Below, piece after piece: positions 14,976 through 30,383 of a stretch of DNA of 32,334 bases. The translations under genes and the position numbers were made by a program. How positions within the stretch are numbered: position 1 is the stretch's first letter; every line of letters begins with the position of its first letter. The notes beneath the pieces were generated by a model. The model did no database searches and was not told the DNA's origin. It saw only the letters and a program-made list of their open reading frames with translations. The DNA is from Desulfocapsa sp. (GTDB taxonomy: Bacteria > Desulfobacterota > Desulfobulbia > Desulfobulbales > Desulfocapsaceae), in the NCBI GenBank assembly GCA_022712895.1, contig JAFLJS010000074.1, forward strand, positions 1 through 32,334. Reading direction: 5' to 3'.

Positions 14976-15315
14976 AGTAGAAGGTACTGATCCTGTCTTA
15001 AATTGTTACAAGTTTACTTTCTTCCTGCTCTTCGAATCTTCTTTATCTGGTATGGAGAAGGAATATTAACCGCCCAGAGAGGTACAAAAAAGTATTTCTA
15101 AACTTTTGTTGAGTGGAGAGATTAACAAATACCATCATCCTCAACAGTCCCCGAACAATAACAAATAATCACCGTATGACATTGGCCCGCGAACCATTCA
15201 TGAAACAATTTCCGTACACCTGAACCATGGCATAACTTAACCGAGGAAGAACCGATGGAAAAGTAAAAACACTCCAGAGACGCGACAATTTGCCACATTT
15301 ACAGAGTACAAATCG

Positions 15316-15330
15316 GTGGTACAGTACCAC
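15316..15330. promoter_or_regulatory. perfect inverted repeat upstream of the TonB-receptor operon (candidate operator)
   Basis: GTGGTAC-A-GTACCAC, 7-bp arms around one base, 259 nt upstream of the receptor start. Its symmetry fits a homodimeric repressor or activator site. Confidence 0.4.
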
Positions 15331-15589: not shown

Positions 15590-17641
15590 ATGATCGCTCG
15601 TCCATTATTTATCGCAACACTACTCTTCAGTCCAGCTAATCAGGTTTTGGCAGAGGATGTAAAACAGGAACTGGATGAGGTCGTTGTTACCGCCTCAAGG
15701 GTTGCAGAAAAAATAAAAGAGGCTCCAGTTACCATTAATGTGATTAGTAAACAGGAGATGGAAAAAGTTAAACCCAGGAATGTTGAAGAAGTACTGAAAA
15801 GAATACCAGGTGTTAACTCCAGTAATCTCGGCGGAGAATCTGCGCTCACCTCCATTAGAGTTCCAACTCATTTCACCAACCCATACACCCTTATTCTCGT
15901 CGATGGTGTACCAACTTCCGGTTACGGTTCCGGTGGTGCCAGCAGTTTTAGCGAAATAAACAGTGACAACATTGCAAGTATTGAAATAGTTAAAGGTCCA
16001 GCCTCTGCCCTTTATGGCAGCAACGCCATTGGCGGCATTATTAATATCATCACTAAAAGCCCTTCAGTCGAACCACAAGTCAAACTCTGGACTGAAATCG
16101 GCAGCTACAATCAATGGCATAGCGGCCTCTCAGGAAGTGCCTCTGGTGAAAAAGTAAGTTTCAATGTTGGTCTTAACTATATCAACTCAGACAACTGGCG
16201 CGATCATTCAGCTGTTGACAAAAAAGCTGGTAATCTAAAGCTACAGTACGTCCCCTTTGAACAGTCACTAATAACCTTCAAGCTTGATTATGTTGACTTT
16301 GACAACGAATCCAGCGGCACACTCAAAGGTGATGATTTTGCTGCCGACTGGCGACACAGTTACAATACATTTACTTATTCAAAGCTTGAAAAGGTATCGC
16401 CACTGCTCAGTTACACCCATTTTTTTGATGATGCCGAATTTAAAACAACTCTGGCACTGCGTAATCTGGACCAGGAAGGACTTCCCAGTTATAGCATTCG
16501 ACCACAAGGCCCCGGAATCTATATGGGTAGCTTAACGGAAACTGAGGAAAATGATATTGATTTGCAATTTCTGTACAGTAAGAACCTTAGCTTTCTGCAA
16601 GCAAAAGTCATCACCGGTATTGATTTTGAAAGAGGTGACACAGAGAGTGATACCCATAGTCTTTCGATCACCTGGGACAGATCTGCCAAACAATACACTG
16701 ACTACAGCGAAGGACCGCTGAGCAAGTCTTACGACGTGACAACAAAAGTAGGAGCCCCCTACCTCCAGTTTCAATTCTCGCCCATAAACAATCTTAGCCT
16801 GATCGCTGGCGGTCGTTATGACTCCCTCAAGTATGAAGTGGATGACAAACTGGCAACAGGTGACAGCGGTGACATGGATTTCTCCAATTTTAGCCCGAAG
16901 ATCGGTCTGACCTATGACGTGACACCTTCCGTGAATACTTACGCAAGTTATTCTGAAGGTTTTGTGGTGCCAACCACCAGTCAACTGTTCACCTCAAGCT
17001 GGGCCAGCAGCGATCTGGAACCGGAGCAGGCCGACAACTACGAAATCGGTGTACGCAGCTCATTCTGGCAACAGAAAGTTGCTCTTGATGTGGCACTGTA
17101 TTCCATGGGAATAACAGATAAAATCGTCAGCAAAGATATCAATGCATATGTGAAAAAATATGTAAATGCGGGCGAGACATCACAGCAGGGAGCCGAAATA
17201 ACGCTGGATCTAAAACCCGTTAATTACGCGGGATTAACGTTTGCTTACACCTATGCCCGTAACGAATATGACAAATATATCACCGGTGGTATTGATTACA
17301 GCGGGAATACAATGGAAAGGTCACCTGAGCATCGTCTCAATGCCAGACTTGCCTTTGTGCCCACTGAAGATTTATGGATTGAGCTTGAAATGGATGCCAT
17401 CAGTTCACAATACTCAGACCCGGCTAATCGGCACAAGTATTCCAGACCCACCCTCTTTAACCTGCGAGCCAATTATGATCTGCAGGACTGGTCATTATGG
17501 TGCAACGTCCTCAATGTAACAGATCAAAAATATGCGACCTATGTCAGTTACAGTAGCAGCGATGATGAGACGACTTATTTTTCAGGCAGTCCCCTTACAG
17601 TTATGGCCGGGGTTTCGTATACCTGGGGGAAGCGTAAATAA
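15590..17641 (+). CDS. TonB-dependent outer-membrane receptor
   Basis: 683 residues. Signal peptide of about 21 residues (cleavage after VLA), a TonB box DEVVVTAS at 29-36, a plug domain (INVISKQEMEKVKPRNVEEVLKRIPGV through GPASALYGSNAIGGIINIIT), then a 22-strand-type barrel with characteristic segments (NLSLIAGGRYD, YASYSEGFVVP, YEIGVRSSFW, LFNLRANYDL). It imports a ligand across the outer membrane using TonB energy. Closest in style to CirA/BtuB-like receptors, but the ligand cannot be read. AAGGAG eight bases before the ATG. The C-terminus ends WGKRK instead of the usual aromatic residue. First gene of a nine-gene operon that brings its own ExbB, ExbD and TonB; its stop overlaps the next start (TAATG). 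Confidence 0.95.
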   Translation: MIARPLFIATLLFSPANQVLAEDVKQELDEVVVTASRVAEKIKEAPVTINVISKQEMEKVKPRNVEEVLKRIPGVNSSNLGGESALTSIRVPTHFTNPYTLILVDGVPTSGYGSGGASSFSEINSDNIASIEIVKGPASALYGSNAIGGIINIITKSPSVEPQVKLWTEIGSYNQWHSGLSGSASGEKVSFNVGLNYINSDNWRDHSAVDKKAGNLKLQYVPFEQSLITFKLDYVDFDNESSGTLKGDDFAADWRHSYNTFTYSKLEKVSPLLSYTHFFDDAEFKTTLALRNLDQEGLPSYSIRPQGPGIYMGSLTETEENDIDLQFLYSKNLSFLQAKVITGIDFERGDTESDTHSLSITWDRSAKQYTDYSEGPLSKSYDVTTKVGAPYLQFQFSPINNLSLIAGGRYDSLKYEVDDKLATGDSGDMDFSNFSPKIGLTYDVTPSVNTYASYSEGFVVPTTSQLFTSSWASSDLEPEQADNYEIGVRSSFWQQKVALDVALYSMGITDKIVSKDINAYVKKYVNAGETSQQGAEITLDLKPVNYAGLTFAYTYARNEYDKYITGGIDYSGNTMERSPEHRLNARLAFVPTEDLWIELEMDAISSQYSDPANRHKYSRPTLFNLRANYDLQDWSLWCNVLNVTDQKYATYVSYSSSDDETTYFSGSPLTVMAGVSYTWGKRK

Positions 17642-18663
17642 TGACTGCCAGGGTTTATATTCTAATCTTTCTGCTCATCATGTCAGGAGGAACGATGCCA
17701 GTGAATGCGGCTCTGCAAGTCGAGCCATTGCAGCTATCACTCAACGCCTTTCCTTTCAATGGTGAGGGGTGTGGATATTGTCCGGTTCCGGAAACCATCT
17801 CTGACACTGGCAAGGCCGGTAGACGCTCAAGGCCAGTCCAGGAGTCTGAACATCGTCCCACACCACAAAAAAAATATCATCTCACACGACTTCGTACTTA
17901 CAACAACGTAAAGGCCTTTGTTCGACGCCCAGACGGCACACTTATTGAACCAACGGTCCGGGTTGGTATGAAACCCGGTCTTTCTTTTGCCACTCCCATG
18001 GGGGATGGCCCGGTACATGGCGCCAACAATGTGTATGTCGTGGAACAGAGCGTTACAGAAAACAGATTGCTGGTACGAACAGCACAGTGGATAACCATGC
18101 ACCATAGCTGTGGCTGGGGGCATGATGCTAAATTTGACAGCACCCGAACAACACCTCAAACCCTTGGCTTCATTCCCCTTGAGGTGCACATCGACAAACT
18201 CTGGGATACCAATTTCCATGCCAGCGTAACATCTGGTGAGCAACTGCTTGTCACTGTTCTCTTGTATGGAAAACCGGTTGCAGGTGCCCAACTTACACTC
18301 ACCACCGAACAAGGATGGAGCAAAAAGATAAACACCAACGAAAATGGAACAGCCTCGCTGCAGATGATTCGCGATTACTATCCTTCATCCTGGGACAGAT
18401 TTCGTCGTGGCTACAGAGGGAAATTCCTGCTAACTGCTGAGTATGACGCGGAACAAGCCGGCGAGTACAACAATAAACCTTATGAACAAATCAGTTATAT
18501 TGCATCACTCCCCTGGAAATACTCACCATCCAAGCAAGACTATTCATCTTATCGCTACGGACTCCTCATTGCAGCTCTTACAATGACTGTCTCCGGTATC
18601 GGTATTTACGCCTACCGTGAACGACGCAAGAAACCATATAAAAGGATCTCTTTTGATGAATAA
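17641..18663 (+). CDS. DUF4198-like periplasmic protein with C-terminal membrane anchor
   Basis: 340 residues. Signal peptide (cleavage about 23, after VNA), mature periplasmic part, one C-terminal transmembrane segment (about 307-324) and a basic cytosolic tail. The layout resembles DUF4198-type proteins, often encoded near nickel/cobalt uptake genes: an extended beta domain (VKAFVRRPDGTLIEP; FHASVTSGEQLLVTVLLYGKPVAGAQLTLTT). Potential metal or redox residues: CGYC (44-47) and MHHSCGWGHD (153-162). Start overlaps the receptor stop by one base; end overlaps the polyferredoxin start by eight. I infer a ligand-binding or relay function between outer-membrane receptor and inner membrane. Family placement is moderate. 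Confidence 0.65.
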   Translation: MTARVYILIFLLIMSGGTMPVNAALQVEPLQLSLNAFPFNGEGCGYCPVPETISDTGKAGRRSRPVQESEHRPTPQKKYHLTRLRTYNNVKAFVRRPDGTLIEPTVRVGMKPGLSFATPMGDGPVHGANNVYVVEQSVTENRLLVRTAQWITMHHSCGWGHDAKFDSTRTTPQTLGFIPLEVHIDKLWDTNFHASVTSGEQLLVTVLLYGKPVAGAQLTLTTEQGWSKKINTNENGTASLQMIRDYYPSSWDRFRRGYRGKFLLTAEYDAEQAGEYNNKPYEQISYIASLPWKYSPSKQDYSSYRYGLLIAALTMTVSGIGIYAYRERRKKPYKRISFDE

Positions 18664-19642
18664 GCTGCAAAGAGCAATTAACAATTCACGCATCAGCTCT
18701 TTCCGTTTCATCTTCCAGATTGCGGCTTTTATCCTCCTGGTCTATGGAGGCTCTCTGGCCATTAATATTGGCGATCAGCTCCCGACTTTTGCCTGTGTTT
18801 TTGAAGATGGCCGCGGAGGTTCCTGTTATTTGATGGGGTTTCAGCACCAGATGGCTACTCCTTTCAACAAGCTTTTCAGTGGCAGGGGAATTGGCATAAT
18901 GGTGGGGCTGCTGACGTTTATCGGTTTCTTCATCCTTTTCAATAAGGCTTGGTGCGGCTTTATCTGTCCACTGGGAACGATCCAGGACTGGATTACTAAA
19001 ATCCGTAATCGCTTCGCCATCCGCTACAGCAGTTACCCTGACCCGGTAAACAAGAAACTCAAGCCCATCAAATATGTACTGCTAGCACTCTTGATTTTGA
19101 TCCCCATGGGTATGGGCAACAGCCTGGCAGGTCTGCCCAAACTCAACCACGACTTCTCCGTCCCCTTTTGCATGATTTGTCCGGGGAGAACGGTACTGCC
19201 GCTCTTTGTGGGAGATATCTCTCAGCTGGCCATTGATTTCAGTTCCAAAACCAAAATGGTGCTCACTGCCCTTGGTATGGCGGTGACAGGTCTATTTTTT
19301 GTTGGTTCCTTTGTCAAAAAACGTTTTTTCTGCCTCTTTTGCCCGATGAGTGCTTTTCACTATATCTTTCACAAAGCCGGATTGCTGCGTCTCACAAAAA
19401 ACGGTGACAAATGTACCCGTTGCGGCAACTGTTATCGTGCCTGTGATGTTGGGATTCGTGCCATTGCTGATGATATTGAAAGTAAAAACATCGTCACTGA
19501 TGATTGTATGATCTGTTTAAAATGTGTTGAAGTCTGCCCGGAAGAGGGATGCCTTAAAGCGAGTTTCCTTGGGCTGTCCATATATGAATCAACCGAGGAG
19601 GGATTTTTTAAAAGAATGAAGGAGACAGGCCATGGAAAATGA
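18656..19642 (+). CDS. membrane polyferredoxin (NapH/CcoG-like 4Fe-4S protein)
   Basis: 328 residues, about five membrane segments (around 17-36, 78-95, 139-156, 202-220). Cysteine motifs: C100-x3-C104P, C172-x2-C175P, C226-x2-C229P, and two ferredoxin clusters C253xxCxxC-x3-C263 and C284xxCxxC-x3-C294P. Proteins of this NapH type pass electrons from the quinone pool or soluble donors across/along the membrane. ATG 18656 (overlapping the previous stop by eight bases, AAAGGAT upstream) is chosen instead of 18617. Placed directly before the double-cubane-type reductase gene (11-nt overlap), it may feed low-potential electrons to the activator or reductase (inference). Confidence 0.88.
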   Translation: MNKLQRAINNSRISSFRFIFQIAAFILLVYGGSLAINIGDQLPTFACVFEDGRGGSCYLMGFQHQMATPFNKLFSGRGIGIMVGLLTFIGFFILFNKAWCGFICPLGTIQDWITKIRNRFAIRYSSYPDPVNKKLKPIKYVLLALLILIPMGMGNSLAGLPKLNHDFSVPFCMICPGRTVLPLFVGDISQLAIDFSSKTKMVLTALGMAVTGLFFVGSFVKKRFFCLFCPMSAFHYIFHKAGLLRLTKNGDKCTRCGNCYRACDVGIRAIADDIESKNIVTDDCMICLKCVEVCPEEGCLKASFLGLSIYESTEEGFFKRMKETGHGK

Positions 19643-20906
19643 ACGTAATGCACTGAGACAAAAAACAACCCGTATCCACCTGGCCATGGAAGCCGAGGAA
19701 ACCCTGAGGCGCCTTAAAGCATTTCCCGATCCGCCAGAGGCCATGGATTATTTTTACAATATGTTCCAGGATCGTTTCAGTAATGACTCCATCCTGCCCA
19801 AGGGCAAAAAGATAATAGGCACTATGTGTGTCCAGGTTCCCGATGAACTCATTCACGCAGCGGGTGCAGTACCATTCCGACTCTGTAGCGGAGCTTTTTC
19901 TTATGATCAGATCGGAGCAGAATTTATGCCGGCCAAATCCTGTCCGGTGGTACGAGCCACCTGTGGCATGCTGCAAATTAATGATACTCTTTGGGGAGAC
20001 AAAATAAATGCAGTGGTGATTCCCACAACCTGTGATCAGAAAAAAAAGGCTACAGAGTTGCTTGGTGATTTATCATACAGTGTCTATTCCCTTGAAATGC
20101 CGTCCAGTAAAGAAAGTGATGCGGCAAGATTTTACTGGCAGGAATCGGTGAAACAATTCGCCCTGGACCTGCAACAGATGACCGGACAAAAAATCACAAA
20201 AAAGCGGGTACAGAAGGCCATTGCCAAAAAGACACAAGCTACTGAGCTGTACCGACAGTTACATGAACTGAGAAAAGCTGATCCGGCCCCTCTCTTTGGC
20301 AAAGATATGCTGCTGGTTAGTAATGCATATTTTTTAGACGATATTGACAGTTGGATGCCAGCGGTAAAAAAAATGATCGAAGAAGTTAAGCAGAGGAAAG
20401 CACAAAATTTCTCCGCAGGGAATCGCCATGCTCCACGTATTTTACTCACTGGTTCCCCTCCTATCTTCCCCAACATGAAGATCCCTATACTCATTGAAGA
20501 GTCGGGTGGAATCATTGTTGCCGACGAAGTGTGCTCTTCCTCACGTTTGTTATACGACTCTGTTTCCTATGACGAGAACAGTCTCAACGACATGGTATCA
20601 GCCATCGCAGACAGATATTTAAAACCCTGCACCTGCCCCTGTCTTACCCCGAATACTGACAGGCAAAGAAAACTGCTGGAGATGGCCCATGAGTTTGCAG
20701 CAGACGGCGTTATTTACCAGGCATTCTCAGGCTGTTTACCCTACGAAATGGAACAGAACCAGATTGCCAAAATATTGGAGAAAAAAGGAATCCCCATGCT
20801 CTATGTCGAGACAGACTACAGCCCTGAAGACCATGGCCAACTGTCAACCAGAGTTGAAGCCTTTATTGAATCCATCAAATTTCGTAAAAGAAAAAAGAGA
20901 ATCTGA
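19632..20906 (+). CDS. 2-hydroxyacyl-CoA dehydratase / double-cubane-cluster protein (HgdB superfamily)
   Basis: 424 residues, cytoplasmic. Members bind 4Fe-4S or the 8Fe-9S double-cubane cluster and receive electrons one at a time from an ATPase activator at very low potential. Ten cysteines: 66, 85, 104, 111, 134, 301, 333, 335, 337 and 368, with family blocks MCVQVPDELIHAAGAVPFR, EVCSSSR and YQAFSGCLPYE. A single-subunit gene directly followed by its activator, without acyl-CoA genes, fits the double-cubane-cluster protein (DCCP/YjiM) branch, whose known member reduces small molecules such as acetylene, better than an amino-acid fermentation dehydratase. AAGGAGA precedes the ATG. The physiological substrate is unknown. 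Confidence 0.88.
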   Translation: MENERNALRQKTTRIHLAMEAEETLRRLKAFPDPPEAMDYFYNMFQDRFSNDSILPKGKKIIGTMCVQVPDELIHAAGAVPFRLCSGAFSYDQIGAEFMPAKSCPVVRATCGMLQINDTLWGDKINAVVIPTTCDQKKKATELLGDLSYSVYSLEMPSSKESDAARFYWQESVKQFALDLQQMTGQKITKKRVQKAIAKKTQATELYRQLHELRKADPAPLFGKDMLLVSNAYFLDDIDSWMPAVKKMIEEVKQRKAQNFSAGNRHAPRILLTGSPPIFPNMKIPILIEESGGIIVADEVCSSSRLLYDSVSYDENSLNDMVSAIADRYLKPCTCPCLTPNTDRQRKLLEMAHEFAADGVIYQAFSGCLPYEMEQNQIAKILEKKGIPMLYVETDYSPEDHGQLSTRVEAFIESIKFRKRKKRI

Positions 20907-20907
20907 C

Positions 20908-21729
20908 ATGCAATATTTCGCTGGAATAGATATTGGCTCCACAAGTATAAAAATTGCATTGATTGATGCAGAGAAAAACTTAAAAAGCAGTTCTGTCTGT
21001 CCCACTGGCAGTCTCTTTCACAAAAACACCCTTGCAGCATTTGAAGAGCTTCTTGAGCAGGAGAATATGCAACGAGAGGATATCAGCTATATATTCTCCA
21101 CCGGCTACGGAAGAAAGCTTTTCAAAGAAGCCGATGAGTCCATCAGTGAAATAACTGCCAACGCCATAGGTGCCAGAGAAGTTGGAGTGAAAGCGGGAAA
21201 GGTTAAAACGATCATTAACATTGGCGGCCAGGATGTAAAGGTCATCAGCCTGGACGAGGATGGCCATGTTAAAAATTTTGTTATGAACGATAAGTGCGCC
21301 GCAGGTACTGGTCGCTTTCTTGAAATGACAGCACGGAACCTTGAGGTGGAAGTAGATGAACTTGGTACCTATCATCAACGCTCAACGGCTGTTCCTCTGA
21401 CTATTAATAGTACCTGTACAGTTTTTGCCGAATCTGAGATTATCGGATTACTGGCCAATGACAAAGGAAAATCTGAGATTATTGCCGGTATCCATTACTC
21501 CATTGCCAAAAGGGTTGCCCGTCTGACCAGACGCTGCGGAACAATTGACGATGTTGTTTTGTTCGATGGTGGGCCAGCCTTGAATAGCGGCCTTGTTACT
21601 GCCATTGAAAATGAGTTGATGCGTAAAGTTCTGGTACCTGAGAAACCTGAGATAACCACAGCCTACGGGGCAGCACTCATTGCCCTTGATACGCATCTTT
21701 ACTGTGAAGACGAGGTCATCAATGCATGA
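20908..21729 (+). CDS. ATPase activator of the dehydratase/reductase (HgdC/YjiL family)
   Basis: 273 residues, BadF/BadG/HgdC ASKHA-fold ATPase. Seen: GIDIGSTSIKIALID (phosphate-1), INIGGQDVKVI (phosphate-2), MNDKCAAGTGRFLEM with Cys130 and NSTCTVFAESEI with Cys170, which in homodimeric activators hold one 4Fe-4S cluster between the subunits, and FDGGPALNSGL (adenosine motif). ATP hydrolysis drives single-electron transfer to the adjacent HgdB-type protein. The ATG lies one base after the previous stop, so the pair is translationally linked. An upstream in-frame extension to 20689 overlaps the dehydratase gene and is not used. Confidence 0.93.
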   Translation: MQYFAGIDIGSTSIKIALIDAEKNLKSSSVCPTGSLFHKNTLAAFEELLEQENMQREDISYIFSTGYGRKLFKEADESISEITANAIGAREVGVKAGKVKTIINIGGQDVKVISLDEDGHVKNFVMNDKCAAGTGRFLEMTARNLEVEVDELGTYHQRSTAVPLTINSTCTVFAESEIIGLLANDKGKSEIIAGIHYSIAKRVARLTRRCGTIDDVVLFDGGPALNSGLVTAIENELMRKVLVPEKPEITTAYGAALIALDTHLYCEDEVINA

Positions 21730-22330
21730 TGCCGTGAGTTTGATACTGCTGGGGATGGCATACGGCGCCACGATATGTAGCTTTACATGCATGCCCTACC
21801 TGGCACCATATCTGATGGGTACGGGCAAGGGGTTTAAAGACGGACTGGCCTCTTCACTGGCTTTTTTTTTGGGGAAAATATGTACTTATGGTGCGTTGGG
21901 TGGCCTTGCAGCACTGTTTGGCCAGGCACTCACCCTGGATCATTCTTATAACAAAATTATGGGAATCGCCCTTCTTTGTGTCGCCACAAGTCTGCCTCTT
22001 GTTACGCGGCGAGGTTGTAAAACCCGATGTCAGGTGGTTGGCAAGCGAGGCTCTTTGTTTGTCCTTGGTATTGCATCAAGCCTTGTGCCCTGCCCCCCTC
22101 TGGCAGCCATATTTGTACTGGCAGCCAACAAGGGATCATTGCTGGTCGGGACTGCATATGGCCTTTTATACGGGATCGGCCTGATGCTCTCACCCATGCT
22201 CATCGCCGGGGGAGGATTGGCCATGATTTCTGGGAAAATCAAACAAGAAGCAACAGCTTTTGTCCCGTATATGCAAGGGATATCAATGCTTGTTATGGCC
22301 ATGATGGCAATAAATATGATACGGGCTTAA
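21722..22330 (+). CDS. CcdA/UreH-like polytopic membrane protein
   Basis: 202 residues with about six transmembrane segments. Two Cys/Pro motifs, CSFTCMPYLAPYLMG (Cys19, Cys23) and SSLVPCPPLAAIFVL, sit in pseudo-symmetric positions as in the CcdA/DsbD transmembrane and UreH_2/TauE-like families. CcdA-type proteins carry reducing equivalents from cytosolic thioredoxin to periplasmic thiols; UreH-like members are linked to metal handling. Either fits the operon, which also encodes a periplasmic protein with a CxxC. A further CysxxxCys (RRGCKTRCQ) lies in a loop. ATG 21722 has GAGG six bases upstream and overlaps the activator stop by eight bases. Confidence 0.7.
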   Translation: MHDAVSLILLGMAYGATICSFTCMPYLAPYLMGTGKGFKDGLASSLAFFLGKICTYGALGGLAALFGQALTLDHSYNKIMGIALLCVATSLPLVTRRGCKTRCQVVGKRGSLFVLGIASSLVPCPPLAAIFVLAANKGSLLVGTAYGLLYGIGLMLSPMLIAGGGLAMISGKIKQEATAFVPYMQGISMLVMAMMAINMIRA

Positions 22331-22347
22331 CAGAAGGAGAAACCACT

Positions 22348-22782
22348 TTGGAATGGCTTAAATACACTATTGATTACGGAATCATCGGCCTGTTGATACT
22401 CATGAGCTTTGCTGCAGTAGCCATTGGTATAGAACGCAACCTGTCCTATAAAAAACTGAAAATTGATAGTTTTCAGGATAAGAAGAGCCTTGAGCTTGAA
22501 CTCACCAAAAAGCTGCATCTCATAGCCACCATCGGCAGTAATGCCCCCTACATAGGGCTGCTTGGCACAGTACTTGGCATCATGTTGACTTTTCACACCA
22601 TGGGCACAAATGGATTTATGGATACTGGGCAAATTATGATTGGCCTGGCTTTGGCACTGAAGGTTACTGCTGTTGGGCTGCTGGTGGCTATCCCGGCGGT
22701 CACCATTTACAACCTGCTGCTTCGTAAAGCAAAGGTTATGATCATGGAATGGGAGGTGCTCAATGGATCAGAACGGATTTGA
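22348..22782 (+). CDS. exbB: ExbB/TolQ/MotA-family proton-channel protein (short form), TTG start
   Basis: 144 residues, about 100 shorter than E. coli ExbB. One N-terminal membrane helix (TIDYGIIGLLILMSFAAVAIGIE, split here: residues 7-18 and onward) and two C-terminal helices, with the family segment APYIGLLGTVLGIMLTFHTMG and a final ALALKVTAVGLLVAIPAV. It lacks most of the cytoplasmic domain, like the short ExbB of some epsilon- and deltaproteobacteria. Forms the proton-driven motor with ExbD and TonB for the receptor at the start of the operon. The start is a TTG preceded by GAAGGAG at seven bases; no other start covers the first helix. Ends 20 nt inside exbD. Confidence 0.85.
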   Translation: MEWLKYTIDYGIIGLLILMSFAAVAIGIERNLSYKKLKIDSFQDKKSLELELTKKLHLIATIGSNAPYIGLLGTVLGIMLTFHTMGTNGFMDTGQIMIGLALALKVTAVGLLVAIPAVTIYNLLLRKAKVMIMEWEVLNGSERI

Positions 22783-23143
22783 TTCTATAAACGTCGTTCC
22801 ACTGGTGGACGTCATGCTGGTACTGCTCACCATAGTACTCACCACCTCAACTTTTGTGGCGACAGGGGCAATCCCTGTGGCCCTGCCAAAAGCAGAAAAC
22901 AGTATTACTGAAACACTGCCCTCCACCACCATTGAAATTGACCGTCAGGGAAATATCTACCTCGACACAACTCCTTCGTCAATAATTCACCTCAGGACTA
23001 CCCTGATGCGTTTTCAACGATCTAATCCTATTTTAATCCGGGCTGACAAAGATATCAGCTTGCAAAAATTTGTAGATGTCATGGACATTGTAAAAGGATT
23101 GGGATTTAGAACAGTCAGCCTACAGACCAAATCATCCAGGTAA
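22763..23143 (+). CDS. exbD: ExbD/TolR-family protein
   Basis: 126 residues. A short cytosolic N-terminus (SINVVPLVDVMLVLL) with the conserved membrane Asp16 needed for proton conduction, one transmembrane helix (about 14-34) and a periplasmic domain (IEIDRQGNIYLD, ILIRADKDI, KGLGFRTVSLQT). GGGAGGTG four bases before the ATG. Overlaps exbB by 20 nt and is followed by tonB after five bases. Confidence 0.93.
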   Translation: MDQNGFDSINVVPLVDVMLVLLTIVLTTSTFVATGAIPVALPKAENSITETLPSTTIEIDRQGNIYLDTTPSSIIHLRTTLMRFQRSNPILIRADKDISLQKFVDVMDIVKGLGFRTVSLQTKSSR

Positions 23144-23148
23144 AAGAA

Positions 23149-23976
23149 ATGGGCTACGAAGCAGCGTTACAGGTTTCCACTATCGGGCAGATTGCTGCAA
23201 CGGAGAAAGATCATAAACTTTGGGGCGTGGGAATCTCTTTTTTCCTTCATATGCTGGCTGTTAGTTCTGTTGTGGCCATGAGTAGTGTTTTTTCAAGTCT
23301 TACCCCGCCCTTACGAATTGATTTCAGCATGCATAAGCCGTACACAGTCACAAAAGTTAAAAATGTAACAGCTACCACTGCCCGTATGCCAGAGCGTGCA
23401 ACTGTCCTGTCACAGCAAGTGACTCTACCGCCAGAACCTGCGCCTGAGAAAGTACAAGAAGCGGTACCTGTGAAAATCACGCCACTGCTGACTAAAAAAA
23501 AGATACCCGTAACAGCCGCCTCACTGGTAGTAAAAGAAGAGCCTATTCCCCCAAAAAGCGTGGAAGCTCCATCCCAGCCAATGGCTGAAATCGTCCATGA
23601 CCAGGGAATACCGCACGAAGAATCAGTAGTTAATAATAGCATTATCCAGACTGCGGCCCCCGAGCAGAAAGGAGTTGTGTCAGTCATGTCACAAGAAAAG
23701 CAGTACCTGAAAGAGCATTTTCTTTATATCAAGGACAGTATTCAGGGCAATATTTCTTATCCCCGCATAGCGCGAAAGATGGGCTGGCAAGGCAGAGTCC
23801 TTATTTCATTTATTATCTGTAAGGACGGTTCGGTGAAAGATATACGAATAATCGAAAGCTCAGGCGTTAAAGCATTAGACAACAATGCGGTGAAAGTGAT
23901 TCAGAAGATAGCTCCATTTCCAAAACCTCCTGTGGCCGCTGAGCTTATCATTCCCGTGACATATAAGCTGAGCTGA
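23149..23976 (+). CDS. tonB: TonB energy-transducing protein
   Basis: 275 residues. N-terminal membrane anchor (about 24-46) containing the S-x3-H signature (Ser30, His34) that couples to ExbB/ExbD; a Pro/Lys/Glu-rich periplasmic spacer (about 80-150, with PPEPAPEKVQ and KEEPIPPKS); and the C-terminal TonB domain (about 197-275: YPRIARKMGWQGRVLISF, GSVKDIRIIESSG, LDNNAVKVI, IPVTYKLS) that binds the TonB box of receptors. Last gene of the nine-gene operon, so probably dedicated to the receptor at 15590. Convergent with the AAA-SPOR gene, 17 bases apart. Confidence 0.95.
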   Translation: MGYEAALQVSTIGQIAATEKDHKLWGVGISFFLHMLAVSSVVAMSSVFSSLTPPLRIDFSMHKPYTVTKVKNVTATTARMPERATVLSQQVTLPPEPAPEKVQEAVPVKITPLLTKKKIPVTAASLVVKEEPIPPKSVEAPSQPMAEIVHDQGIPHEESVVNNSIIQTAAPEQKGVVSVMSQEKQYLKEHFLYIKDSIQGNISYPRIARKMGWQGRVLISFIICKDGSVKDIRIIESSGVKALDNNAVKVIQKIAPFPKPPVAAELIIPVTYKLS

Positions 23977-25658: not shown

Positions 25659-25853
25659 TTTTTTTTACCTTGCAATAGTATTCCATATTGTATTTAAGAA
25701 ACAAAAACACAGTGGAATAGAATCAGTTCCGACATGGCTATGAGAAACATTCCTCTCAATGATATACGGGCTCTCATAAACTCAGCTGATAAATTACTTT
25801 ATTATAATGGAAATGTATACAGAACAGAACCACTGTTCAAGGATTTTATAGAC

Positions 25854-26567
25854 ATGCTCACTCCTTTTCTTATCTCAATCATTTTTCTACTCGCTGGATT
25901 CATTCAGGGAATGACTGGCTTTGGCTCAGCCCTTGTCGCCATCCCTCTGCTCAGCCTTTTTCTGGACATCAAAAGTGCAGTACCGCTTTGTATCCTGAAC
26001 AGCCTTGTCATCACAACCTATTTATCACTCAAAATGCGTAAGAATCTGGATAGAAAAAAGATCCTTCCTCTCTGTATTGCCGCAGTTCCAGGTATTATCG
26101 TTGGCTCGACACTCCTTAAACAGGTTGACTCCGACATTATCAAACGCACTCTAGGGGCCTCACTGGTCGGCTACTCTCTGTACAGCCTTTTCTTCACTCC
26201 AAAAACTCGTAAACTTCACAACTTCTGGTCATATTTTGCCGGATTCTCTTCTGGTGCCATAGGCGCGGCTTTCAGCGCCGGTGGACCTCCCACCATAATA
26301 TATACAGCGATGAATGATTGGAAAAAAGACAGTATAAAAGCGACGCTGAGTGGATTTTTCCTGTTTAATTCTTATCTTATAGCTACGGTGCATGCAGTAA
26401 GTGGGCTAACCACCATTGAAATATTCACCTATTTTATGATCTCAGCACCAGTTGTCCTTTTAGGTACTGTTTTGGGAAATATCTGTTATGGAAACATTCC
26501 TCATGCCCTGTATCTAAAGATCATCTTTGCCTTTTTAACCTTAATGGGTATCATGATGATTGTATAA
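25854..26567 (+). CDS. TauE/SafE family membrane permease (sulfite/sulfonate exporter-like)
   Basis: 237 residues with about eight membrane segments. The duplicated family motif is visible: FIQGMTGFGSALVAIPLL near the N-terminus and FSSGAIGAAFSAGGPPTIIY in the second half. Members export sulfite, sulfoacetate or other small organic anions; the substrate here is open, though the neighbouring ThDP enzyme could produce or use a small keto acid. ATG 25854 with AAGGA ten bases upstream is preferred; the frame is open from 25734, but those 40 extra residues are not family-like. Confidence 0.88.
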   Translation: MLTPFLISIIFLLAGFIQGMTGFGSALVAIPLLSLFLDIKSAVPLCILNSLVITTYLSLKMRKNLDRKKILPLCIAAVPGIIVGSTLLKQVDSDIIKRTLGASLVGYSLYSLFFTPKTRKLHNFWSYFAGFSSGAIGAAFSAGGPPTIIYTAMNDWKKDSIKATLSGFFLFNSYLIATVHAVSGLTTIEIFTYFMISAPVVLLGTVLGNICYGNIPHALYLKIIFAFLTLMGIMMIV

Positions 26568-28337: not shown

Positions 28338-30383
28338 ATGACTAAACTGTTCTCTCATTATCGCCTCCTTGCCTTTAACATCTGGCTCCTGGCTGTTGTC
28401 TGCTCACTTGCCTGGAATACTGTCGATAACATCCGTGAACGTGACTCCATTGCCCATGAAACAGCCCGGGCTTTTTACAAACAGATCCTGGCCGCCCGCC
28501 AGTGGAATCTGCTCCATGGAGGAGTCTACGTCTACACCACAGAGCATAGTCCACCGAATCGCTACCTGCCTGTAGATAAACAAACGATACAAGACAGCAA
28601 CGGGAAATCCCTAACCCTTATCAACCCTGCCTATATGACCAGACAGATTGCTGAGATAAACGAGGAGAAAGGCCCCGTTCAGTTTCATATTACCAGCTTG
28701 ACCCCTCTTCGTGACGAAAATGCACCCTACCCCTGGGAAATTCCTTGGTTACAATCCTTTAATAGAGGAGAAAAAGAACAGGGAGCGTTCGTAATAGAAA
28801 ACGGTCAAGAGATTTTTCGCTACATGGCACCCCTTGCCTTTACAAAATCCTGCCTCCCCTGCCATACAACCCCAGAGCCCCCTGACACCATACGTGGTGC
28901 AATCTCTGTCAGTTTCCCCACCCCTTTTAAAAAATCACCCTGGCCACTGCTCCTCAGCCATTTATTTGTGGGACTGACAGGTCTTGCTTTTATCTTCTTC
29001 TTTGGTGGCCGACTGGCTGAAAGCAGGAGAAATATCCTGCGAAGCAACAGGGAACTGGCAAAAGAAATTGAGGAACGCAAAGAGACAGAAAAAGAACTAC
29101 TCTCTGTAAAAGAAAACCTGGAACAGACTGTTACTCACCGTACTGGTGAGCTCCTGGAGATCAACACCACCCTTGACAAGAGAATCCGGGAGCAACAACG
29201 CGTTGAGGCAGCTCTGGTCTCTATCAATGACGAATTTATTCAGATTTTCAACAGTGCTCCTGACGGCATGCATGTCATTGACAGGGACTACAATGTTATT
29301 CGTGTTAACCACGCATATTGCAAATTGGTTGGCAAGAAGCAAAACGAAATTCAAGGTCACAAGTGTTACGATGTTTTCACCGGAAAACTCTGTCACACGG
29401 AACAGTGCCCTCTCACCCAGATCAGTAAAGGTGCAAAAAGGGTGGAAGTTGACGCAAGAAAAACCAGAGCTGACGGTGAAATCATTCCCTGCGTTGTCAC
29501 TGCCACACCTTTCCGTGACCCCGGTGGAAAGCTCACAGGAATCATCGAAGTTACCAGGGATATCAGTGACTGGAAAGACATTGAACGTTCCCTGTCTGCC
29601 ACCGCGAAGAACCTGCGCCTTCGAAACACAGAGCTTGAGGATTTTGCTCACGTTATATCACATGACCTACAGGAACCCCTAATGCTCATCCAGGCATTCA
29701 GCGAAAGGATACGAAAGAAGTGCTCCACGGAGCTTCCAGAACGGGGCCATGATTACCTGAAACACATTGAACATTCCACCCAGCGCATGAAGAGCCTGAT
29801 TGATGGTCTGCTCCTCTACTCCAGAGTCAGCAGTAAAGCCAGCCCATTTGAATCGGTTAATCTGCTAAGTATAACCAATTCAGTCCTTGATGATTTAGCC
29901 CTGAGGATTGAGAAACAAAATGCCATTCTATGTGTGGATCCCAATCTGCCATCCATTGAAGCCGACCCCCTGCAAATGCGGCAGCTCTTTCAGAATATTA
30001 TTGGCAATAGCCTCAAATACCACCATCAGCAACACAAACCCGAAATTTCCATCGAGTATAAACCCTTTTCAGATCCTACCCACGACCAAAGTTACATTCG
30101 CATAACCATCAAAGATAATGGCATTGGCTTCGAAGAAAAATATCAACATCAGATCTTTGATATTTTCCGACGTCTGCATACCAGGAAACAATTCCAAGGG
30201 ACGGGGATAGGACTCTCCATTTGTAAAAAAATCGTTGACCGGCACCGAGGAACGATAACTGCACAGGGCACCCCCAAAAAAGGAGCCGCATTCACTATCA
30301 CCCTTCCCCGAAAACAACAGACCCATAACACTGACCCCTTCAGTGACAATAGCCTGGTAAACAGTATCATCAACAGACGCTAA
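28338..30383 (+). CDS. heme-c-binding (Tll0287-like) PAS sensor histidine kinase
   Basis: 681 residues. A membrane helix (about 8-26), then a periplasmic Tll0287-like/DUF3365 sensor (RAFYKQILAARQWNLLHGGVYV split around 45-66; INPAYMTRQI) ending with a c-type heme site SCLPCH (CxxCH at 172-176), a second membrane helix (203-222), a coiled coil (226-295), a PAS domain (about 296-415, Cys343/352/357), HisKA with phospho-accepting His442 (ISHDLQEPL), and HATPase motifs (QNIIGNSLKY, DNGIGF, GTGIGLSICKKI). Likely senses redox state, NO, CO or another heme ligand in the periplasm. No response regulator adjoins. The only visible ribosome binding site is poor. Confidence 0.92.
   Translation: MTKLFSHYRLLAFNIWLLAVVCSLAWNTVDNIRERDSIAHETARAFYKQILAARQWNLLHGGVYVYTTEHSPPNRYLPVDKQTIQDSNGKSLTLINPAYMTRQIAEINEEKGPVQFHITSLTPLRDENAPYPWEIPWLQSFNRGEKEQGAFVIENGQEIFRYMAPLAFTKSCLPCHTTPEPPDTIRGAISVSFPTPFKKSPWPLLLSHLFVGLTGLAFIFFFGGRLAESRRNILRSNRELAKEIEERKETEKELLSVKENLEQTVTHRTGELLEINTTLDKRIREQQRVEAALVSINDEFIQIFNSAPDGMHVIDRDYNVIRVNHAYCKLVGKKQNEIQGHKCYDVFTGKLCHTEQCPLTQISKGAKRVEVDARKTRADGEIIPCVVTATPFRDPGGKLTGIIEVTRDISDWKDIERSLSATAKNLRLRNTELEDFAHVISHDLQEPLMLIQAFSERIRKKCSTELPERGHDYLKHIEHSTQRMKSLIDGLLLYSRVSSKASPFESVNLLSITNSVLDDLALRIEKQNAILCVDPNLPSIEADPLQMRQLFQNIIGNSLKYHHQQHKPEISIEYKPFSDPTHDQSYIRITIKDNGIGFEEKYQHQIFDIFRRLHTRKQFQGTGIGLSICKKIVDRHRGTITAQGTPKKGAAFTITLPRKQQTHNTDPFSDNSLVNSIINRR

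Follow-up and report, generated by a model that had tools for sequence, protein, structure and literature searches.

A stretch of 32,334 nucleotides from Desulfocapsa sp. (GenBank assembly GCA_022712895.1, contig JAFLJS010000074.1; hereafter the window) carries, at positions 15590-23976 of its plus strand, nine genes that combine a TonB-dependent outer-membrane receptor (TBDR) and an ExbB-ExbD-TonB motor with a double-cubane-type reductase (DCCP) and its activase (Table 1). An earlier note, made from the sequence alone, had described these genes as a same-strand operon with gaps of 20 bases or less; this description was borne out, as all nine genes were confirmed and every junction either overlaps or shows a gap of at most 17 bases. 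Pfam scores were 162 (barrel) and 91 (plug) bits for the receptor, 45 (Fer4_5) and 42 (Fer4_10) bits for the polyferredoxin, 338 bits (HGD-D) for the reductase, 186 bits (BcrAD_BadFG) for the activase, 52 bits (DsbD_2) for the membrane protein, and 97 (MotA_ExbB), 94 (ExbD) and 68 (TonB_C) bits for the motor proteins. All parts of a TonB-ExbB-ExbD import system, i.e., a receptor with plug and barrel, ExbB, ExbD and TonB, were found.

Table 1. Genes and predicted promoter elements of the operon in the Desulfocapsa sp. window
Feature	Position	Strand	Basis and remarks
TonB-dependent outer-membrane receptor (TBDR)	15590..17641	+	Pfam, NCBIfam and PDB comparison; ligand class not given by sequence
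DUF4198-type exported protein with C-terminal helix	17641..18663	+	Pfam score below cut-off, alignment, model
NapH-type membrane polyferredoxin	18656..19642	+	Pfam, NCBIfam, alignment
Single-subunit double-cubane-type reductase (HgdB-type; DCCP subgroup)	19632..20906	+	NCBIfam, PDB, tree, fold
HgdC/BadF-type ATP-dependent activase	20908..21729	+	Pfam, NCBIfam
DsbD_2/UreH-like membrane protein	21722..22330	+	Pfam; invariant C33, C37 and C138 numbered from open reading frame start 21680
ExbB	22348..22782	+	TTG start; Pfam, NCBIfam
ExbD	22763..23143	+	Pfam, NCBIfam
TonB	23149..23976	+	Pfam, NCBIfam
RegA/RegR-like operator (predicted)	15281..15297	+	1 mismatch to the relatives' motif TGCGACAATTTGCCACA; 309 bases ahead of first gene
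Degenerate second palindrome TACCACACCGTGGTA	15307..15321	+	4 mismatches; matched equally well by 2 of 100 shuffled versions of the window stretch

The reductase, which is the sole HGD-D match in its genome, scored 379 bits against NF040772, the NCBIfam family for double-cubane reductases (cut-off 350), and its nearest solved structures, both by sequence and by fold (model with a predicted local distance difference test (pLDDT) value of 69), are DCCPs. Assignment as a 2-hydroxyacyl-CoA dehydratase or class II benzoyl-CoA reductase was ruled out, as there is only one HGD-D subunit and scores did not exceed 115 bits (cut-offs >420). The view of the earlier note that this protein is of the double-cubane type and not an amino-acid-fermenting dehydratase thus agrees with the NF040772 score, the nearest PDB entries, the fold and the tree described below. 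Six cysteines (C66, C104, C134, C301, C335 and C368) were invariant among 60 of 60 homologues (counted after removal of duplicates and of homologues <300 amino acids); we assume that these are the double-cubane ligands, and the conserved cysteines suggest that the window reductase is able to hold a double cubane, the [8Fe-9S] cluster itself and an ATP-dependent reduction of small molecules being predicted.

In a midpoint-rooted tree with 60 rows, for which the program issued a warning about adjoining long branches, the window protein was placed among 23 rows that were set apart from 37 canonical DCCP rows with support of 100/99. The same split was observed in a quick tree to which the locus L157 was added and from which L018 and L091 (a second HGD-D protein), both present in the first tree, were left out (L and G numbers designate loci and genomes, respectively). 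Judged from these trees, the window protein belongs to a distinct DCCP subgroup outside the canonical group. A PCxCP motif was found in 22 of the 23 subgroup rows and is lacking in L157, so the motif is not strict. By its profile scores the subgroup straddles the NF040772 cut-off; among eight other members, three passed (357, 361 and 385 bits) and five fell below (313-348 bits), as compared to 508 and 515 bits for two canonical DCCPs. The window subgroup thus shares with the structurally characterized DCCP and DCCP-R (PDB 6eno, 7yyl and 7yzm) the family, the six invariant cysteines, the adjoining activase gene and the best PDB match, and differs in its separate branch, in one inserted residue in most members, in the PCxCP motif and in an adjoining polyferredoxin gene.

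Conservation of the neighborhood, a test set beforehand, held. Among 257 genomes of the order (Desulfobulbales), 112 contained a match to the reductase at E 1e-20 and 17, including that of the window, contained one with at least 47% identity; these 17 genomes all carry the DUF4198, NapH, DCCP and activase genes in direct succession. A receptor was present in all 15 assessable members (the other two are cut by contig ends), although it lies downstream of tonB in L046 and is split over two frames in L041. ExbB, ExbD and TonB were found in 16, 15 and 15 of the 17 members, respectively (with a weak extra TonB match in L053), and DsbD_2 in 14, being absent from the maps of L045, L046 and L053. A NapH gene lay within 1.5 kb of the reductase gene in 21/21 subgroup loci as compared to 0/35 canonical DCCP loci, and a DUF4198 gene in 19/21 as compared to 0/35, where absence means no recognizable relative, as the neighborhood profiles were built from the 17 order members. 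The polyferredoxin gene adjoins the reductase gene in all 24 subgroup members mapped, and no receptor was found around canonical DCCP genes in any of the four loci mapped over 16-20 kb. These gene maps indicate a neighborhood far beyond chance. Downstream of the operon, the window also encodes a TauE/SafE-type membrane protein (25734-26567), for which the neighborhood maps showed no match beside the operons of other order members, and, at 28338-30383, a histidine kinase with Tll0287-like and PAS domains.

Outside the order, the core is present in L089 and L090 (same phylum) and in L035, L036 and L157 (Pseudomonadota). In a sample of 395 genomes from the phylum, 48 showed a match at E 1e-70, and among the best 30 of these 48 only G259 and G266 were subgroup members from outside the order. 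For the genome with L035 the subgroup was found in 1 of 240 genomes of its class and 2 of 398 of its phylum, counting that genome itself, and is thus rare in these two groups. L090 shows the order ExbB-ExbD-TonB-receptor-DUF4198-TPR-DUF4198b-NapH-DCCP-activase-DsbD_2 on one strand, and L157 shows receptor-DUF4198b-NapH-DCCP-activase-DsbD_2 beside a divergent DUF3450-ExbB-ExbB-ExbD-TonB-TPR set. In L035 and L036 a CobN-type protein and PepSY_TM proteins are encoded near the core, and G055 and G056 carry, on the same strand, receptor-radical SAM-CN hydrolase-CobN-DUF4198-DUF4198b-NapH-DCCP-activase-DsbD_2, with four CobN matches within approx. 41 kb around the core in G055 and two within approx. 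21 kb in G056; the G055 stretches also carry CbiZ and FecCD genes. CobN-rich islands with cobalamin riboswitches were seen in both genomes (L093, L094 and L054 in G055; L095, L096 and L055 in G056), each genome having 13 riboswitch matches. In L089 (positions 169-1988; G259), genes for an ATP-binding cassette (ABC) permease and an ATPase with a TOBE domain, presumably molybdate-like, lie upstream of the DUF4198b-NapH-DCCP-activase core.

Among the partner proteins, the polyferredoxin has 16 cysteines that were invariant in 22 of 22 aligned members, and C33, C37 and C138 of the DsbD_2/UreH-like protein were likewise invariant. Eight of the nine gene labels proposed by the earlier note were supported by Pfam or NCBIfam; the DUF4198-like label was weak by sequence (20.4 bits, Pfam cut-off 34). 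The AlphaFold2 model of this protein is of low confidence (mean pLDDT 62.6), and its first nine PDB matches are metal-bound Zcp (E 1.3e-8; template modeling (TM) score by query length 0.40) and a Ni-bound DUF4198 protein (E 1.9e-6; TM score 0.34). Because these metal-bound structures top the matches, the label is likely right at the fold level, and the second operon protein likely has a DUF4198 fold of the metal-binding type, as far as the model allows. An HHxCxWGH motif was present in 16/16 order members that hold this stretch of the protein (L044 is cut) and was not found in five aligned members from outside the order.

These features would also fit TonB-dependent uptake of nickel or cobalt, in which the receptor takes up a metal complex, the DUF4198 protein binds the ion, the UreH-like DsbD_2 protein imports it and reduction or unloading of the complex falls to the redox proteins. 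DUF4198 proteins are described, in the part of PMC12537917 that concerns them, as a secreted Ni-binding family found beside TonB receptors and NikR-type regulators, and the modeled fold matches Ni-, Co-, Cu- and Zn-bound proteins. On the other hand, a histidine at the likely mature N-terminus, which the same part of that source gives for 79% of the DUF4198 family, was not seen by eye in the window protein, and an ATP-driven reductase of very low potential has no obvious role in ion uptake; we consider this explanation unlikely.

We hypothesize instead that the operon serves to import and reduce a metal complex, with a metallo-tetrapyrrole of the corrinoid or heme type as the most likely candidate, and put the probability of this reading at roughly 45%. 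The earlier note had guessed at a metal chelate or corrinoid as ligand, and the support for this guess is circumstantial, i.e., the CobN-type neighbors, the metal-binding DUF4198 fold and a cobalamin riboswitch in two variants. In G055 (108.6 bits) and G056 (102.5 bits) this riboswitch was located at the 5' end of the first gene of the run, the receptor gene; the G055 riboswitch and the called receptor frame overlap, and the true start of this frame is probably later. The same riboswitch could equally serve cobalt uptake. Compared to solved structures, the CobN-type protein of L035 is closest to HmuS (460 bits), followed by ChlH (364 bits) and CobN (353 bits). HmuS removes iron from heme in an NADH-dependent manner, according to the HmuS sections of PMC12583661. 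His-538 of HmuS is retained in L035, yet it does not discriminate, because the same sections give this site as common to the chelatase superfamily. A methionine- and glycine-rich stretch of the L035 protein (217-256) was found in a search for the methionine-rich insertion of HmuS and was not counted, because its position differs from that in HmuS. The best receptor scores were for heme receptors in G056 (241 bits, below the cut-off of 317) and for B12 receptors in L090 (224 bits, below the cut-off of 600). ATP-driven reductive activation of an enzyme with a nickel tetrapyrrole has a precedent, with other proteins, in the activation complex of methyl-coenzyme M reductase, as outlined in the relevant part of PMC12176620. 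Overall, these sequence-based clues favor a metal complex, best a metallo-tetrapyrrole, although uptake of nickel or cobalt or of iron also fits several parts.

A number of observations weigh against a tetrapyrrole ligand. The window genome (G000) contained no CobN/HmuS-type protein (PF02514), and CobN was absent from six of the ten genomes searched (i.e., the window genome, G109, G185, G219, G259 and G266). No cobalamin riboswitch (RF00174) was found in the window or in eight further loci searched, and the two such riboswitches of the window genome lie away from the operon, one of them upstream of a ThiC-type gene. In G185 a separate riboswitch-headed receptor-ExbB-ExbD-TonB-BtuFCD-like cluster is present, and the DCCP operon of this genome is therefore not its standard B12 importer. 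Moreover, NCBIfam names the L035 protein CobN (1162 bits, missing the cut-off of 1248), the L036 protein is equally near CobN (437 bits) and HmuS (430 bits), and the L054 protein is closer to CobN than to HmuS. No inner-membrane carrier for a large ligand was evident, and reduction of heme iron alone requires no such low potential. The window receptor reached no curated NCBIfam cut-off among the 25 families listed and is nearest to YncD/PqqU, the receptor for pyrroloquinoline quinone (PQQ), among solved structures. As an observation on its own, a strong cobalamin riboswitch at positions 9954-10141 of L188 (G000 contig 29) is followed by no same-strand gene in the next 3 kb, with feoB on the opposite strand.

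Further receptor data bear on a heme ligand and on two other explanations. A heme receptor assignment by curated score was rejected, no cut-off being reached among the families listed; the histidine of the FRAP/NPNL motif, a heme-receptor-type motif, was not seen by eye in the window receptor, in which only H581 is largely conserved among the receptor histidines (12 of 14 aligned). The proximity to YncD/PqqU, shared by the L157 receptor, might suggest that the DCCP reduces another imported organic cofactor or quinone-like molecule (e.g., a PQQ-like one) and no metal complex. This is very unlikely, as the window receptor scored 166 bits against a PqqU equivalog cut-off of 1200 and the links to CobN, DUF4198 and the riboswitch would be left unexplained. 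The top NCBIfam score of the window receptor was for TonB-siderophore receptors (216 bits, just below the cut-off of 223.5), which would fit a system that takes up iron from a ferric chelate by reduction, as an anaerobic equivalent of the ferric-reductase loci with PepSY and DUF4198 proteins. The pertinent parts of PMC3751524 and PMC11870441 place DUF4198 genes in a Fur regulon and in a PepSY locus with a proposed role in ferric iron reduction, respectively, and PepSY_TM neighbors occur in L035 and L036. However, control by Fur was rejected, as the 19-base Fur consensus matched 14 upstream stretches no better than shuffles (the window stretch reached only to -300 and two stretches were mis-anchored), and ferric chelates require no ATP-driven double cubane; we regard iron uptake as quite unlikely.

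The operon promoters share a 17-base motif, TGCGACAATTTGCCACA; of 14 loci, 13 have it at the operon start (the exception is L038; L044, L048 and L053, which are truncated at contig ends, were outside this count). With up to two mismatches, the motif had 14 matches in 274,463 bases, all at operon starts and two of them in L041 (the second may belong to a divergent gene), whereas the reversed motif gave 0 matches and 30 shuffled motifs gave 0.03 on average (one strand). As these promoters themselves served to define the motif, the count of 13 of 14 is not independent. The called receptor frames of L040 and L045 begin slightly ahead of the box, and their true starts must lie further downstream. 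This predicted box fits a single transcription unit. With regard to expression data, none of six terms sought in the main text of the cable-bacteria paper PMC13047784 was found there. The box resembles published sites, as judged by eye from the portions of PMC5359404 and PMC5506826 that present them; a Rhodobacter capsulatus RegA peak at cydA agrees with it at 12 of 15 bases and the RegR site GNGRCRTTNNGNCGC differs from it at 2 positions. In the window genome, a box with one mismatch precedes a RegBA-like pair (L122), of which the kinase is best named ActS/PrrB/RegB (208 bits, below the cut-off of 350) and the response regulator ActR/PrrA/RegA (173 bits, below the cut-off of 250).

A near-identical pattern gave 38 strand-hits in the genomes of ten relatives, 10 of which are operon sites, as compared to 1 for the reversed control. 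A looser pattern with two mismatches argues against a clean regulon; it showed no excess in the window genome (11 and 10 strand-hits as compared to 6 and 14 for the control) or in G056 and G266, and hardly any in G055. We analyzed 34 site loci, i.e., 20 of the 28 non-operon sites of the near-identical pattern and 14 picked by eye among the looser-pattern matches listed. By similarity, kinases like the RegB-like kinase of the window genome occur at seven of these, genes of a NosL-containing cluster at six and a split-Soret-type cytochrome cluster at five; family names were tested for representatives only, and two members of the NosL cluster are NosL by Pfam. As a side observation, L122-L155 (window genome and relatives) may represent a small redox-type regulon with the RegBA-like pair, NosL-family proteins, split-Soret-type cytochrome c and extra receptors. 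That the same box precedes NosL-type genes could point to copper handling tied to redox state, and the polyferredoxin is reminiscent of CcoG-type cupric reductases. We consider this scarcely probable, as a common box shows co-regulation at most and the match of the window receptor to OprC, a receptor for copper, reaches no better than E 0.001. A second palindrome, TACCACACCGTGGTA, begins (with 0-3 mismatches) 27 bases past the start of the RegA-like box in the promoters of L039, L041, L042, L043 and L050 and in L124 and L144, and 26 bases past it in the window. Its sites include other TonB-receptor genes (L124, and a receptor fragment in L144), and it is perhaps the site of a ligand-specific regulator.

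The earlier note knew of no described system with this gene set, and we likewise found, in searches of an open-licence library, neither such a system nor a double-cubane cluster linked to TonB. Among known systems, the heme uptake operon hmuYRSTUV, as presented in the corresponding part of PMC12583661, resembles the window operon in that a TonB receptor, an ExbB/ExbD-like motor and a small membrane protein are encoded together; it also includes a reductive tetrapyrrole step, which for the window is only proposed. L035 has an HmuS-like neighbor, whereas the window genome has no CobN/HmuS and the processing enzyme would be the double-cubane reductase. The BtuB-TonB-ExbBD-BtuFCD system is similar in having a receptor with its own motor and, in two variants, riboswitch control; the window operon lacks BtuFCD-like genes and a riboswitch, and G185 has both systems separately. 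The Caulobacter iron-reduction locus, for which the passages of PMC11870441 on this locus name no DCCP, likewise combines DUF4198 with membrane redox proteins; the window operon lacks PepSY. Class II benzoyl-CoA reductases (BzdNO, MbdON) are related in fold, whereas the window has one HGD-D protein that scores far below their equivalog cut-offs. These reductases follow an ATP-driven low-potential logic, as does the DCCP type. Operons that combine uptake with a dedicated processing enzyme are already known; here the enzyme is unusual and testable.

The interpretation given in the earlier note found partial support. The pairing of import with a reductase is supported, and we infer the chemistry, including that the DCCP acts on the imported ligand. 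Under the import-and-reduce reading, the receptor, energized by its own ExbB-ExbD-TonB motor, would admit the ligand to the periplasm, and the DUF4198 protein would hold it or its metal there. The polyferredoxin would connect the quinone pool to cytoplasmic iron-sulfur partners, and the activase would spend ATP to drive single electrons onto the double cubane, which in turn may reduce the ligand at its metal center or macrocycle, such that the metal is released or the cofactor becomes usable. Transfer of metal or of thiol electrons through the inner membrane might be the role of the DsbD_2 protein, and a RegBA-like redox two-component system may set operon expression. A more specific proposal, which we consider speculative and rather unlikely, is an ATP-driven, Birch-like step in which the DCCP would reduce an imported tetrapyrrole, either at its macrocycle or at its metal, with the metal freed without oxygen and without a CobN-type chelatase.

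To our knowledge, no natural substrate of double-cubane reductases has been described. A conserved operon in a sulfur-cycling anaerobe and its relatives joins outer-membrane import to an ATP-driven iron-sulfur reductase, and because gene order ties this subgroup to an import system, the receptor ligand represents a direct lead to the DCCP substrate; the substrate question can thus be reduced to a small number of binding and growth tests, and the redox-type promoter box offers a way to learn under which conditions the operon is expressed. Should the ligand prove to be a tetrapyrrole, the operon would illustrate a means by which anaerobes lacking HmuS-type chelatases could open these cofactors, and if a Birch-like reduction is true, it would provide both the first physiological DCCP substrate and a new anaerobic route of heme or corrinoid breakdown in genomes without HmuS.

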